The position numbers were made by a program, and so were the translations under genes. A stretch of DNA of 64,000 bases from an uncultured bacterium (GTDB lineage Bacteria > Armatimonadota > UBA5829), in assembly GCA_938074205.1 (NCBI GenBank), contig CALJES010000011.1:62001-126000 (forward strand). Direction: 5' to 3'. Below are positions 23,967 through 31,333 of this stretch, in pieces (positions within the stretch are counted from its first letter, which is position 1; each line of letters starts with the position of its first letter). The notes beneath the pieces are model-generated. The model was given only the letters and a program-made list of their open reading frames with translations, did no database searches and was not told where the DNA came from.

Positions 23967-26108
23967 TCAGTCGAACAACTTCTGCTGGCCGGCAGCTTCA
24001 ACGCGCATTTTATGAGACGGCTTGGGAAAGAGCTCGTCAAACTCGTCGCCGAAAGCCTCTCTCAACCGACAGGCGAACTTGTAGAGTTTATCGAGCAAGT
24101 AATCTCGATCCTCGTCGTGGTTGTATTCAGAAGCAAGTGCAACCGTGCCATCATTGCGATTGTAAACTGATACGTAATCACCTATTTGCGAATGGCTTAC
24201 TGCCTGTGCCACACGCTTTTTTGACGTAACGGAGAAAGTCTTCTCAGTCACGCGCTCGCGTCGGCAGATCATGTCTATACTCATTTCGCCGGCGTTGATT
24301 TTTTGAACGAATGAGTCGTACAGTTCTCTTACCTTGACCCTTTCCCCTTTTAGAAGGAACTCTGCTGCCTTGGATATGAAGATTTGGCCGAACCGCTCGT
24401 CCGCTCGCGAACGCAGTGACGAGCCCTTAAATATCAACCGTCCCGAGTAGTCTGCGAGAACGTAGTTTTTCATCTTGAGGGAGATCATCGCTCGATAGCG
24501 GCCGTCGTGGGCAAGTCGAATCCCAGGTGGTAGGACCGAGCCGATCCGTTGAACGTAATCTATTTCCGCATCCTCACCTTCGATGCCCGGCGGCGGTTTG
24601 AAGTATACGCCGTCAGTATCGACTTCCACCACCTGGCTGCCGGTACGCTCCAGTTCCTCAATGATACGCTTCACTATAGCGCGCCCCGTTGTTGTTACTT
24701 TAGTTGCTGCCTCGTAGTCATTGAAATTAAAAGGCCCTGCCAGGTAGCCGTAGAACGAATTGATGAGGATCTTGAACGCGCTCTGTAGTCCTTCCCAGTA
24801 TGAGCGTTCGCGCCCCTCAGTCTCACGTGACCTTTTCTTTGCCTCTATGCGCCGCTTGGTAAGTTCTTCCAGTGCAGGCAAGAACACATCCAATGTATCC
24901 GACGCAGGCTTGATTCGGTTGGTGAGCATAATGCTCGGATACAAACTCTCAACGTCACACTTGACTATCGTCTCGATAACTCCCGTCGCGCGGACTTCCG
25001 TGTAACCCCCGGGCAGCGATTTTGGGGGATTCTGTTTCGGGATTGCTCGTCCGTTACGTAGGTACTCGCGGATTAGTATCGTATTAATCTTCTCTCCATT
25101 GCCAGTAGAAGCAGCATGTTGGTAGGTGTCCGGCACCATCTGGGTAAGATAGAACTCCGGCGGCGAAACTATTTCTGCCAGCGATCTAGTCTCGCGGACG
25201 TCCTGTAGGGCATATTTTCTTACCCTATCCGGATTCGTTTTGTATTCCGCAGCTATCTTATCGTGCGGTATGATTTCGCGGTCGGGCTCCGATATGCCGA
25301 GCGTCTTGGCCAGAGCCTTGAGCGAATGGCTGGCGAAAGCGCCTTTGCCTACATCGTATCTTTGGGAAAGCAGCATTGTGTCGATAACGTGTCTGCCGTG
25401 GATATAGGCGGGCTGGAAAGGCCTGGTATAGTAGCCGATCGCGCATTGCTGCCTGGTACCAAACGTAACTTCCGATCCGTCGCGCCCCAGCGCGAGCGGT
25501 ATTCCGTGCATTTTGGCTAGAGCAGCCAAGTAAGGAAGATCAAAATCGTAAATGTTGTGGCCCTCGATCACGTCCGGGTCGAGCTCGTGCACGAGCTCGA
25601 CGGTTTTGCGCAAGACATCACGCTCATCGCCTTCAACTATCGTTTCAAAACCTCTGCTGTCGCTAATCGCAACGAGAAGTATCTCGTTTTTTGGATGTGC
25701 AGGCAAGATCGCCGCCGTTTCAATATCGAGTTGTGCGCGGACAATTTCATCAAACGACATCCCTTTAAACAGGGTTATGCCAGATCTCGTGAGAAACTGC
25801 TTTGCCGGAGTTGCAAGTACCAAGTGTTCGGCGTGAGCGTCTCTGAGCCAATAGCGTGCACTTTCGAACGCGTCGCGGTCTTCGAATTCGGCTAGCCAAT
25901 CGAAATCCTGCCCATCGAGCTCGCTCCAAATAGCGCCTGTCAGTTGATGCCTTTCGGTGGTCAGGATCCACCATAGGAACGGGCGTTGCTCGACGACCAC
26001 GCTGTCACCTATGCGGCGATAAAGCTTCGCGCAGTCAGAACCCACCTCGACGGCTACAACGCGTTCCGTCGGATCGCTGCCGAACAATATGTGCTCCGCC
26101 ACCGACAT
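23967..26108 (-). CDS. Family B DNA polymerase (PolB type) with 3'-5' exonuclease
   Basis: A 713-aa family B DNA polymerase, comparable in length to E. coli Pol II and archaeal PolB. The exonuclease domain has ExoI QLDIET near residue 126 and ExoII GHNIYDFDLPYL near 183. Polymerase motif A is KCDVESLYPSIM near 382, motif B is FKILINSFYGYL near 443 and motif C is VDTDGVYF near 493, so all catalytic carboxylates are present. The extreme C-terminus, GQQKLFD, fits the beta-clamp binding pentapeptide QxxLF, which suggests a role at the replication fork, for example in repair or translesion synthesis. A -10 box lies so close to ATG 26108 that the mRNA may be leaderless. Neighbours are unrelated. 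Confidence 0.93.
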   Translation of the reverse strand: MSVAEHILFGSDPTERVVAVEVGSDCAKLYRRIGDSVVVEQRPFLWWILTTERHQLTGAIWSELDGQDFDWLAEFEDRDAFESARYWLRDAHAEHLVLATPAKQFLTRSGITLFKGMSFDEIVRAQLDIETAAILPAHPKNEILLVAISDSRGFETIVEGDERDVLRKTVELVHELDPDVIEGHNIYDFDLPYLAALAKMHGIPLALGRDGSEVTFGTRQQCAIGYYTRPFQPAYIHGRHVIDTMLLSQRYDVGKGAFASHSLKALAKTLGISEPDREIIPHDKIAAEYKTNPDRVRKYALQDVRETRSLAEIVSPPEFYLTQMVPDTYQHAASTGNGEKINTILIREYLRNGRAIPKQNPPKSLPGGYTEVRATGVIETIVKCDVESLYPSIMLTNRIKPASDTLDVFLPALEELTKRRIEAKKRSRETEGRERSYWEGLQSAFKILINSFYGYLAGPFNFNDYEAATKVTTTGRAIVKRIIEELERTGSQVVEVDTDGVYFKPPPGIEGEDAEIDYVQRIGSVLPPGIRLAHDGRYRAMISLKMKNYVLADYSGRLIFKGSSLRSRADERFGQIFISKAAEFLLKGERVKVRELYDSFVQKINAGEMSIDMICRRERVTEKTFSVTSKKRVAQAVSHSQIGDYVSVYNRNDGTVALASEYNHDEDRDYLLDKLYKFACRLREAFGDEFDELFPKPSHKMRVEAAGQQKLFD

Positions 26109-27703: not shown

Positions 27704-28696
27704 CTATTGGGGCTTCGATATTGGTGCATCTTTTAGCGGAGGCTCGTGAATATGTGCCGGTTTTATCGCGGACCACACCAGTGGAAGAGATGCCAGCAGT
27801 ACCAATCCGACAATTGCAGTCGAGATTATCTCCTGCCGACTCAACTTAAAGTGTTTCCAATTTGCTGCCAGAACACACGCAGCCAAAACAATCAACGCGG
27901 GCAGCGACGGCAGTAATCCGAACAACACAGCCAGCATACCGGCGGTCATACCGATGAACACGTACCAATAGTTGCGGATGCCGTCCATTGCCAATTTGTG
28001 CACGGCCGAAAATACCAGCGCCATAAACAGGAAGTCGCCCGGGCCTACTAGGACTTGCGGGGCAAACGTTCCCGTTCCTGCAGCAGGAACAGGTGCTCCT
28101 ACTGCCATTGCCACCTCCGGCGCCTTCTTGAGCATCGTCGAAACCGGACCCTGGGTTACAGTCCAGAAATCTATATATGCTGCGAACATTACAACAGGCA
28201 AGAGCAGATTCTTGTCGCGCACAAGCAAGCTTACAGCATATCCCAAGCTGCAAGCTGTCGAAATTATCGCAAGCTGCATAGGTATGCGCAGAATAGTTGA
28301 GTAGGCACCCACAATGTATAAAGCTTCTCTTAGATTGGGACTCCTACCAATCTTCGCGCTGATACCGGATTGCTTCACGATAAGCAGTCCAAGAAGCAAC
28401 GCCGCAGCAACACTGCCGAGCAATACAGCAGCTGCACCTTGCCAAGTCAACCTGAGTCGGCTGAAATAATACACCAGTGCAATTTGCACAGCCATAAAGG
28501 CTACTGTAGGGGCAGCCATTAGAATCATCCCCGCAATTGTGAGGAGAACTACGGCAAACGGAGGTGCTAAGTGCACCAATCCGTCGATAACACTGATAAG
28601 TACAGGCAAAAAGGTCGCCCTCGGCACAAGAATCCAGAGGGCAACGTATGCCGCCACCGATAAAGCTAAACATGCTCCCGTAGATTTCACTCGCAA
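27704..28696 (-). CDS. Presenilin/signal-peptide-peptidase-like membrane protein (MEROPS A22-like)
   Basis: A 330-aa protein with nine or ten hydrophobic helices and no recognised bacterial family. The late helices carry, in order, AYIDFW (Asp176), VGPGDFLF (Asp221) and LPAL (266-268). These match the three signatures of intramembrane aspartyl proteases: a catalytic Asp in helix 6 (usually YD), GxGD in helix 7 and PAL at the start of helix 9. The 45-residue gap to GxGD and 45 residues on to PAL are close to archaeal presenilin homologues. Differences: Y-I-D in place of Y-D, and an Ala/Pro-rich loop of about 35 residues between the two helices. The function would be to cleave membrane helices or signal peptides. 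TTG start with GAGGG upstream. The call is by motif only. Confidence 0.62.
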   Translation of the reverse strand: MRVKSTGACLALSVAAYVALWILVPRATFLPVLISVIDGLVHLAPPFAVVLLTIAGMILMAAPTVAFMAVQIALVYYFSRLRLTWQGAAAVLLGSVAAALLLGLLIVKQSGISAKIGRSPNLREALYIVGAYSTILRIPMQLAIISTACSLGYAVSLLVRDKNLLLPVVMFAAYIDFWTVTQGPVSTMLKKAPEVAMAVGAPVPAAGTGTFAPQVLVGPGDFLFMALVFSAVHKLAMDGIRNYWYVFIGMTAGMLAVLFGLLPSLPALIVLAACVLAANWKHFKLSRQEIISTAIVGLVLLASLPLVWSAIKPAHIHEPPLKDAPISKPQ

Positions 28697-28974: not shown

Positions 28975-29550
28975 ATGAGCAAGATCCGGATAGTAATTGC
29001 TGACGACGAAGCAATCATACGCATGGACCTCAAGACGATACTGGAAGAAATGGGACACGAGGTCGTAGGCGAAGCTGCCGACGGTGCGAAGGCAATCGAG
29101 ATAACAAGAGCCTTGAGGCCCGACGTTGTCATTATGGATATAAAGATGCCTGTGCTCGACGGTCTCGACGCAGCGAAGGTAATCTCAGAAGAGAAAATAG
29201 CACCCGTAGTCCTGCTCACGGCGTATTCAGACAAGGAGTTAGTGGAGAGAGCCAAGGATGCCGGAGTTTTCGGCTACCTGGTGAAACCGTTTCAGGAATC
29301 GGATCTGCTTCCCGCTATAGAAATTGCGATTTCGCGATACCTCGAAATGCAGGAGCTTGAATCGACTGTTAGCGACTTGGAGGAAAAGCTCGAAACGCGC
29401 AAGTTGGTTGACCGCGCGAAAGGTATACTGATGGACAAGTACAAGATCACAGAGGCGGAGGCTTTCAGACGCATTCAGCAGCAGAGCATGAACCAGCGCC
29501 GCCCAATGAAGGAGATAGCGCAAGCTATAATTATCGCAAACGAAGTGTAG
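28975..29550 (+). CDS. ANTAR-domain response regulator (AmiR/NasR/EutV type)
   Basis: A 191-aa response regulator. The receiver domain (residues 1-118) has the acidic pair DDE at 10-12, phospho-acceptor Asp55 in MDIKMP, the T at 83 and Lys105 in LVKPF. A coiled linker (about 118-135) joins an ANTAR domain (about 137-190) with DRAKGILMDKYKITEAEAFRRIQQQSM. ANTAR domains bind RNA and act as antiterminators on mRNAs that contain a pair of small hairpins. The start has GGAGAG three bases before it. Followed 55 bases later by a GAF histidine kinase, forming a likely EutV-EutW-like pair. The target transcripts are not identifiable here. Confidence 0.92.
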   Translation: MSKIRIVIADDEAIIRMDLKTILEEMGHEVVGEAADGAKAIEITRALRPDVVIMDIKMPVLDGLDAAKVISEEKIAPVVLLTAYSDKELVERAKDAGVFGYLVKPFQESDLLPAIEIAISRYLEMQELESTVSDLEEKLETRKLVDRAKGILMDKYKITEAEAFRRIQQQSMNQRRPMKEIAQAIIIANEV

Positions 29551-29605: not shown

Positions 29606-31333
29606 TTGAGTCCCTGGAGAAAGCGCAGTACAAGTGAACAAGAAGCAACGGCAGCAACCCTTAGAGAACTTCCGCCCGAGCAGGAGCTGGAAGCCCTGCG
29701 ACTCCGCGTGGCTGACCTGGAAAAGCGGGTAGCCGAAGCTACGTTGGAGGCAGATGCTCTTCGAGAGATAGGTCAAGCTATCGGCTCGATGCTTAACATA
29801 GATGAAATGCTGCGTCAGGTGGCTGAGATTGTAGTAAAGGTCACCGGAACTGATCTGTGCCTTATTTACCTCCTTGACGAAACCGGTAAGGAGCTGGTCC
29901 TGCGAGGGGCAAGTGGCGACACTAAAGACGTGGTCGGCAAGATCCGGCTGAAGGTAGGCGAAGGCATCACCGGCTGGGTTGCGCAACAGGGCACACACGT
30001 AGTTCTACCTAGAGAAGCATGGCGAGACTCCAGATTCAAACGTGTTCCTCTATCACAGGACACTTACCACTCCATGCTTTCCGTTCCACTGCGCGGACAG
30101 AACGGACTGGTAGGCGTGATCAATGTTCGCACCGATCCGCCACACGAATACACAAGAGTTCAGATTAGCCTGTTGGATTCTATTGCCCGCCAAGTGGGCG
30201 GAGCCGTTGAAAACTACAACACCTACCGCAGGGTTGAACAGAAAGCGTCCCGCCTTTCGACCCTTTCTGAAATCAGTCGTCGGATCACGTCAGATATGTA
30301 TCTCGAGGAGATACTGCAGCTGATTGTGGCGATGACGGCTGAAACTATGAACTTTAAGATATGCTCCATAATGCTGTTAGACGAATCGAAGCAAGAACTG
30401 GTTATCAAGGCAACGCAATCAAAGAGTCGCGCCTACACTAAGAAACCGAACGTGAAGTTGACGGAATCGGTGGCCGGTAGAGCAGTGTTGGAGCGTCGGC
30501 CAATAACGATCCGCGACGTCCGCAAAACGCCGGGCTACCAGTATCCGGATATAGCTCGCAAAGAGGGGCTATGTTCGCTGATCTCGCTACCGCTCATGGT
30601 GAAAAACGACATAATTGGCGTTCTTAACTGCTACACGGGCACTCCACACGACTTTACAGAAGACGAAATCAACCTTTGTACTGCTGTGGCAAACCAAGCT
30701 GCAATATCAATACAAAACGCGCGGCTGCTAGTGCAGACGGCCGTTTTGCAGGAAATGCATCACCGTGTCAAGAACAGCCTTCAGACAATAGCCAGTCTGC
30801 TGCGACTACAGTTGAAACTCGGCAAGGTTGATTCACTCGAAAAAGCTCTTATTCAAAGCATAAACCGCATCCAGTCTATCGCCTCAGTGCACGAGCTGCT
30901 ATCCAGCGAACACTTGGATGACGTGCCGATCCGACGGCTTGCTGATACAATCCTATCTGGAACCGTTAGCAGCTTGCTGCCCGAAGAAGGAAATGTGCGG
31001 CTTTCAGTTGAGGGAGAGGACTTTTTGCTGCCAAGTGGTCAAGCGACCTACGTGGCTCTTATCCTAAACGAACTTCTACAAAACGCTGTCGAGCACGGAA
31101 TCAAGGGAGCCCTCGGAACCGAGCTCAGCATACGATTTGGCCGAGACGAAGACAACGTCATAATTGAAGTGGTCAACGATGGTGACCAGCTTCCGTCTGA
31201 CTTTGATGTGCGCAGCCACAGGAAACTTGGGTTGCGCATCGTTGAGAGCCTAGTCCGGGACAACCTGCTCGGAGACTTCTCTATGACAAGCGAAAACGGG
31301 CGCACACGAGCGACAGTTACATTTCCCAGATAA
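29606..31333 (+). CDS. GAF-domain sensor histidine kinase (HisKA_2, EutW/PdtaS-like)
   Basis: A 575-aa soluble kinase without membrane segments. A coiled coil (about 25-55) is followed by two GAF domains (about 55-210 and 230-375), which bind small ligands or cofactors. The HisKA_2 phospho-acceptor motif MHHRVKNSLQTIASLL lies at residues 384-399, with the His at 385 or 386. A C-terminal HATPase_c domain (about 465-575) has LILNELLQNAVEHG as N-box. This layout is typical of the partner kinases of ANTAR regulators. The TTG start at 29606 has GAGG nine bases upstream. Cognate regulator is the preceding gene. Confidence 0.9.
   Translation: MSPWRKRSTSEQEATAATLRELPPEQELEALRLRVADLEKRVAEATLEADALREIGQAIGSMLNIDEMLRQVAEIVVKVTGTDLCLIYLLDETGKELVLRGASGDTKDVVGKIRLKVGEGITGWVAQQGTHVVLPREAWRDSRFKRVPLSQDTYHSMLSVPLRGQNGLVGVINVRTDPPHEYTRVQISLLDSIARQVGGAVENYNTYRRVEQKASRLSTLSEISRRITSDMYLEEILQLIVAMTAETMNFKICSIMLLDESKQELVIKATQSKSRAYTKKPNVKLTESVAGRAVLERRPITIRDVRKTPGYQYPDIARKEGLCSLISLPLMVKNDIIGVLNCYTGTPHDFTEDEINLCTAVANQAAISIQNARLLVQTAVLQEMHHRVKNSLQTIASLLRLQLKLGKVDSLEKALIQSINRIQSIASVHELLSSEHLDDVPIRRLADTILSGTVSSLLPEEGNVRLSVEGEDFLLPSGQATYVALILNELLQNAVEHGIKGALGTELSIRFGRDEDNVIIEVVNDGDQLPSDFDVRSHRKLGLRIVESLVRDNLLGDFSMTSENGRTRATVTFPR

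Follow-up and report, generated by a model that had tools for sequence, protein, structure and literature searches.

A predicted presenilin/signal peptide peptidase-like intramembrane protease family in the bacterial phylum Armatimonadota

A 330-amino-acid (aa) polytopic membrane protein encoded by an uncultured member of the Armatimonadota represents a family that is predicted, from sequence comparisons, to be a distant branch of the A22 (presenilin/signal peptide peptidase, or SPP) intramembrane aspartyl proteases, a reading to which we assign a probability of about 0.86. Its gene lies on the minus strand of a 64,000-nucleotide stretch of genomic DNA, here called the window. Di-aspartyl intramembrane proteases are known from eukaryotes and archaea, and one of them, presenilin, is the enzyme central to Alzheimer's disease. 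Our literature search for a bacterial presenilin or a characterized bacterial A22 enzyme, whose scope excluded most subscription journals, found no such title or abstract. The preliminary description of this DNA had read the protein as a bacterial intramembrane aspartyl protease forming a distinct A22 branch, and the profile searches, Pfam scans, and helix couplings reported below support that prediction.

Motifs, conservation, and distribution of the family

The gene, together with the predicted features of its product, is laid out as follows (residue numbers are those of the 330-aa protein; TM, transmembrane helix; PS1, presenilin-1).

27704..28696, minus strand: gene for the presenilin/SPP-like membrane protein, 330 aa, TTG start, stop codon included (open reading frame and translation)
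28145..28204, minus strand: core TM5, residues 165-184, with the DxWxV..GP motif, equated with presenilin TM6 (family hydropathy; Val at Asp+4)
28169..28171, minus strand: codon of Asp176, predicted first catalytic aspartate (Asp in 194/194 non-redundant homologues)
27998..28060, minus strand: core TM6, residues 213-233, equated with presenilin TM7 (hydropathy; alignment to PS1 TM7)
28034..28045, minus strand: GPGD, residues 218-221, in which Asp221 is the predicted second catalytic aspartate (G218 and D221 in 193/193 non-redundant members aligning there)
27893..27901, minus strand: PAL, residues 266-268, opening the helix equated with presenilin TM9 (P in 186/194 and L in 184/194 non-redundant members; aligned to PS1 P433-A-L)
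27830..27862, minus strand: N279-E289, N-x3-F-x-L-x-R-x-E motif, predicted to be cytoplasmic and to lie between the PAL and C-terminal helices (conservation)
27767..27826, minus strand: extra C-terminal transmembrane helix after the PAL helix, residues ~291-310 (family hydropathy)

An alternative GTG start lies two codons past the TTG. The translation bears out exactly the three motifs that had been noticed at the outset, Y174-I175-D176, G218-P-G-D221, and L265-P-A-L268, with 45 residues separating D176 from D221 and another 45 separating D221 from P266. The earlier count of nine or ten hydrophobic helices also stands, in that hydropathy averaged over the family gives nine core helices and the 330-aa protein has ten segments, the additional hydrophobic stretch lying at residues ~30-55. 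By the same hydropathy, D176 falls on core TM5 and D221 on TM6, and PAL opens TM8, which is followed by the ninth helix.

A protein search detected family members in 91 of 101 relatives, and those relatives that have informative names are Armatimonadota metagenome-assembled genomes. With a profile of 79 members, homologues were recovered from 269 of 291 Armatimonadota genomes (186 of the 194 good ones), nearly always as one copy per genome; a search of viral contigs and plasmids yielded no homologue. One genome, G084, carries a tandem pair of family genes (L054:2723-4618). In another, a single-contig genome, a frameshift immediately ahead of the PAL helix divides the homologue (L073; G047:C1, ~2346786-2347714) into two overlapping frames; it reflects either an error of sequencing or decay of the gene copy.

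Mean column identity across the family is 18%. Besides the residues listed above, Glu289 is present in 191 of 192 aligned members and N279 in 172 of 194. The PAL triplet reads literally PAL in 111 members, PGL in 37, and PLL in 22, and the distance between the two aspartates ranges from 43 to 61 residues. Judged from this alignment, the motifs are under strong constraint and are not products of chance, since a chance origin would not be expected to leave two invariant aspartates within hydrophobic, strongly diverged helices, a pattern typical of di-aspartyl membrane proteases. Two traits that the preliminary description had proposed as marks of a distinct branch do not hold for the family: Tyr174 of the Y-x-D arrangement is not conserved, the residue before D176 being mostly V, I, A, or F, and the Ala/Pro-rich loop between the aspartate helices is not a family feature. 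Tyrosine directly precedes the first aspartate in only 6 of 194 members (the 330-aa protein reads Y-I-D); these six read YDxFLVLxPxG, like YDLVAVLCPKGP (YDLVAVLCPKG) of PS1.

Residue 220 is Gly in 105 members and Ala in 88, dividing the family into GxGD and GxAD (46%) forms. This split is a naturally occurring experiment at the counterpart of presenilin-1 Gly384, a glycine affected by a familial Alzheimer mutation. For the requirement for the GxGD glycine, PMC2947513 cites Steiner et al. (2000).

Profile searches and the relation to A22

Searched singly against Pfam, NCBIfam, and the PDB, the 330-aa protein had no match; the relationship emerges from family profiles. A full-length profile of 79 members, run against all PDB sequences, had presenilin-1 (2kr6, E=0.0045) as its top hit and presenilin-2 (E=0.029) in third place, with the matches aligned across GxGDF...PAL, and a core-only profile (104 members) run against 177,635 PDB sequences returned presenilin-1 as its sole match at E<=10 (E=0.0018). 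The family profile matched none of the archaeal presenilin homologue (PSH) chains in the PDB. As a yardstick, a single-sequence search with human SPP, whose kinship with presenilin is accepted, reached presenilin-1 at E=0.18 and did not reach archaeal PSH. The human SPP query is only partly verified, by its match to SPPL2A, and the PSEN1 query matched 5a63 over 467/467 residues.

Pfam scans point the same way. Among 24,736 families, PF01080 (Presenilin) was matched most often, both by the 79 full-length members (5/79) and by the 104 cores (13/104, best E=0.012), and PF04258 (Peptidase_A22B) came third for the cores, with 5. In whole-genome scans with the Pfam models PF06550, PF04258, and PF01080, run blind to the 27704-28696 locus, a family member in G036 was the best hit of PF06550 and the third hit of PF04258, and PF01080 matched the G028 and G035 homologues over the stretch of the model that runs from GxGD to PAL (positions 333-392). 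No family member reached the gathering cut-offs of PF01080, PF04258, or PF06550, and the family is thus a member of no curated A22 family as now drawn.

The HMM-HMM comparison with presenilin and SPP that the preliminary description had suggested was made with shuffled controls. Scored by hhalign against single proteins, the family reached 28.8 with PSEN1, 28.7 with SPP, and 24.5 with SPPL2A, all three in GxGD register, where the maxima from window-shuffled targets were 26.2 (n=300), 27.5 (n=300), and 28.1 (n=270), respectively. With a joint PSEN1/SPP/SPPL2A profile the family reached 44.7 (P=3e-6, probability 88%), compared with a maximum of 23.8 among column-shuffled controls (n=210), which kept local composition. 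That these controls stay below the profile-profile score argues against the reading that the protein is an unrelated transporter-type membrane protein whose short hydrophobic motifs look alike by chance. That reading could appeal to the modest E-values against every single known protein, to the inflation of similarity by hydrophobic helices, and to isolated weak matches between individual members and various membrane families; we consider it highly improbable, as the invariant residues are exactly the catalytic ones of A22 and every other Pfam family has fewer matching members. A transporter match, which the preliminary description had named as evidence against its proposal, was looked for directly: none was significant for the 330-aa protein, and transporter identity was rejected after the Pfam scan of cores gave no transporter family common to several members.

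The other di-aspartyl membrane proteases with GxGD are the type 4 prepilin peptidases (A24), which are polytopic membrane proteins too, but there is scant likelihood that the family is related to them. The Pfam scan found no PF01478 match in the 330-aa protein, a true A24 enzyme is encoded elsewhere in the same genome (G000:C12), and A24 enzymes have no PAL and carry their catalytic aspartates in soluble regions (PMC2947513). Comparison by hhalign with 13 Armatimonadota A24 enzymes gave P=0.14 without motif alignment, a result on which prepilin peptidase identity was rejected.

A distant relationship of the family to A22 is well supported by these comparisons, and the family probably works like an A22 protease. 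The significant alignment spans GxGD to PAL, and the D176 helix, which adds nothing to the hhalign scores, is aligned by motif and spacing only, its likeness consisting of the invariant Asp, a Val at Asp+4 (as PS1 V261), and the ensuing G(P).

Topology, genomic neighborhood, and proposed function

Lys and Arg together amount to ~0.20 per residue in loops 77-90, 156-165, 231-245, and 281-290 and to ~0.07 in the D176-D221 loop. Because basic residues concentrate in the other loops, the positive-inside rule places the Asp-Asp loop outside, and the predicted orientation is therefore SPP-like and opposite to that of presenilin; reversed orientation is a key difference between presenilin and SPP (review, PMC7768045). 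From hydropathy and this orientation, both aspartates and PAL are predicted to lie at about equal depth, near the outer membrane face.

In a regularized coupling analysis, 7 of the top 50 pairs link the D176, GxGD, and PAL segments (among them 179-220, 180-224, 180-266, and 220-270), where 0.8 were expected and 25 column-permuted alignments gave a mean of 1.8 and a maximum of 4. Since the strongest single coupling scores do not exceed the permuted top scores, and since shared descent also causes couplings, only the location of the couplings counts; read in this way, the enrichment lends moderate, indirect support to a predicted presenilin fold in which the two aspartates would face each other beside PAL. 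The AlphaFold models built with six sequences were of low confidence (pLDDT 58 at full length, 46 for the core), and a Foldseek search with the full-length model (pLDDT 58) returned noise only.

Two genes divergent from the family gene in the window, listed here as association only, encode a two-component pair.

28975..29550, plus strand: response regulator with ANTAR domain (PF00072 and PF03861)
29606..31333, plus strand: GAF-GAF-HisKA_2 histidine kinase (Pfam)

Of 57 family loci whose flanks are long enough, 18 have the divergent ANTAR regulator, and the kinase occurs in 18 of 50 loci that extend 2 kb or more upstream. In 21 of 58 loci the family gene is followed downstream, on its own strand, by leuS (leucyl-tRNA synthetase; e.g., L036:3624-6218). 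One family clade carries a glycosyltransferase gene instead. The family gene has no constant genomic partner, and a dedicated pathway with the ANTAR pair is not claimed, with the pair in about one-third of loci and leuS in about one-third as well. Within the window the gene is followed downstream by one for an MFS transporter, against which the family gave P=0.54 in hhalign. An Rfam scan of the region gave no match. A small protein of 114-126 aa with zinc-ribbon-like CxCGE/CxxCGE motifs recurs beside the family gene (L061:2464-2805, L077:2539-2880, and L078:3156-3533); a Pfam scan of one such protein gave no match. The window also encodes, at 23967-26108, a 713-aa DNA polymerase of family B with an exonuclease domain, here in a bacterial chromosome.

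We propose that the 330-aa protein is probably a di-aspartyl intramembrane protease of the presenilin/SPP superfamily. Asp176 and Asp221, carried by adjacent transmembrane helices and equally deep in the cytoplasmic membrane, close to its outer face, would activate water to cut a substrate helix. The PAL strip, which opens the helix after next and would lie beside both aspartates, would hold the unwound substrate. Because an SPP-like orientation is predicted, the expected substrates would be membrane segments of type II (N-in), for example residual signal peptides. Near-universal presence, mostly single-copy occurrence, and the want of a fixed operon partner suggest a housekeeping role, and our guess is clearance of membrane peptides rather than one dedicated signaling pathway.

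It is unlikely, though less so than either reading weighed above, that the family has the A22 fold without being a general protease, that is, that it is a non-catalytic or narrowly specialized relative, for example a transporter or chaperone reusing the acidic pair. Both aspartates are invariant and the PAL proline is kept in 96% of members, the pattern of an active enzyme; the replacement of GxGD by GxAD in 46% of members is what such a relative might show, but a GxHyD motif serves the active archaeal prepilin peptidase PibD (PMC4343526). The missing fixed substrate or partner also fits a non-protease, as do the invariant Glu and the extra helix, which are unlike known A22 enzymes.

Significance and comparison with known systems

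Somewhat less firmly than the A22 relationship itself, we favor the view that the protease-like family constitutes a phylum-wide, ancestral, and undescribed bacterial presenilin/SPP branch, characterized by a predicted SPP-like orientation, aspartates on TM5 and TM6, an extra helix, a GxAD variant, and a cytoplasmic Glu that is invariant and peculiar to the branch. Its near-universal presence in the Armatimonadota suggests that enzymes of this kind, which cleave proteins within the membrane, have long belonged to the standard equipment of at least one bacterial phylum as well. If the family is active, A22 chemistry would be a core, mostly single-copy function of that phylum, would be relevant to how presenilin and SPP arose, and would offer many natural single-subunit enzymes for structural work.

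With presenilin (MEROPS A22A, PF01080), the bacterial family shares aspartates in consecutive helices, DxxxV...G(P), GxGDFxF, and PAL, along with the literal YDxFLVLxPxG of six members. It differs in scoring below the curated threshold, in mostly lacking the Tyr, in the commonness of GxAD, in a short Asp-Asp distance without the autocleavage loop, in its predicted opposite orientation, and in its extra C-terminal helix. The resemblance to SPP/SPPL (A22B, PF04258) extends to GxGD followed by (R/K)F at Asp+13, to the hydrophobic helix and basic stretch that come after PAL, and to a predicted outside position of the Asp loop; unlike SPP/SPPL, the family falls below the Pfam cut-off, has the invariant E289, and lacks one of the helices that precede the first Asp helix but has one more after PAL. 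For the N-x3-F-x-L-x-R-x-E motif (N279-E289) we know of no counterpart in presenilin or SPP. Whereas the nine-helix plan of A22 puts the aspartates on TM6 and TM7 and PAL on TM9, the nine core helices of the family, by hydropathy, have them on TM5 and TM6 and PAL on TM8.

Type 4 prepilin peptidases (A24, PF01478) are alike as GxGD di-aspartyl membrane proteases, but the family has no profile similarity to them, and they lack PAL and have the first Asp positioned differently. A review of regulated proteolysis in bacteria (PMC7593790) lists aspartyl intramembrane proteases with eukaryotic presenilin as the example, and the described prokaryotic example, MCMJR1 (PSH, PF06550), is archaeal (PMC2947513, PMC4343526). 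The family resembles archaeal PSH as a single-subunit prokaryotic membrane protein of the di-aspartyl protease type with GxGD and PAL, and differs from it in helix count and in being bacterial and near-universal in its phylum.
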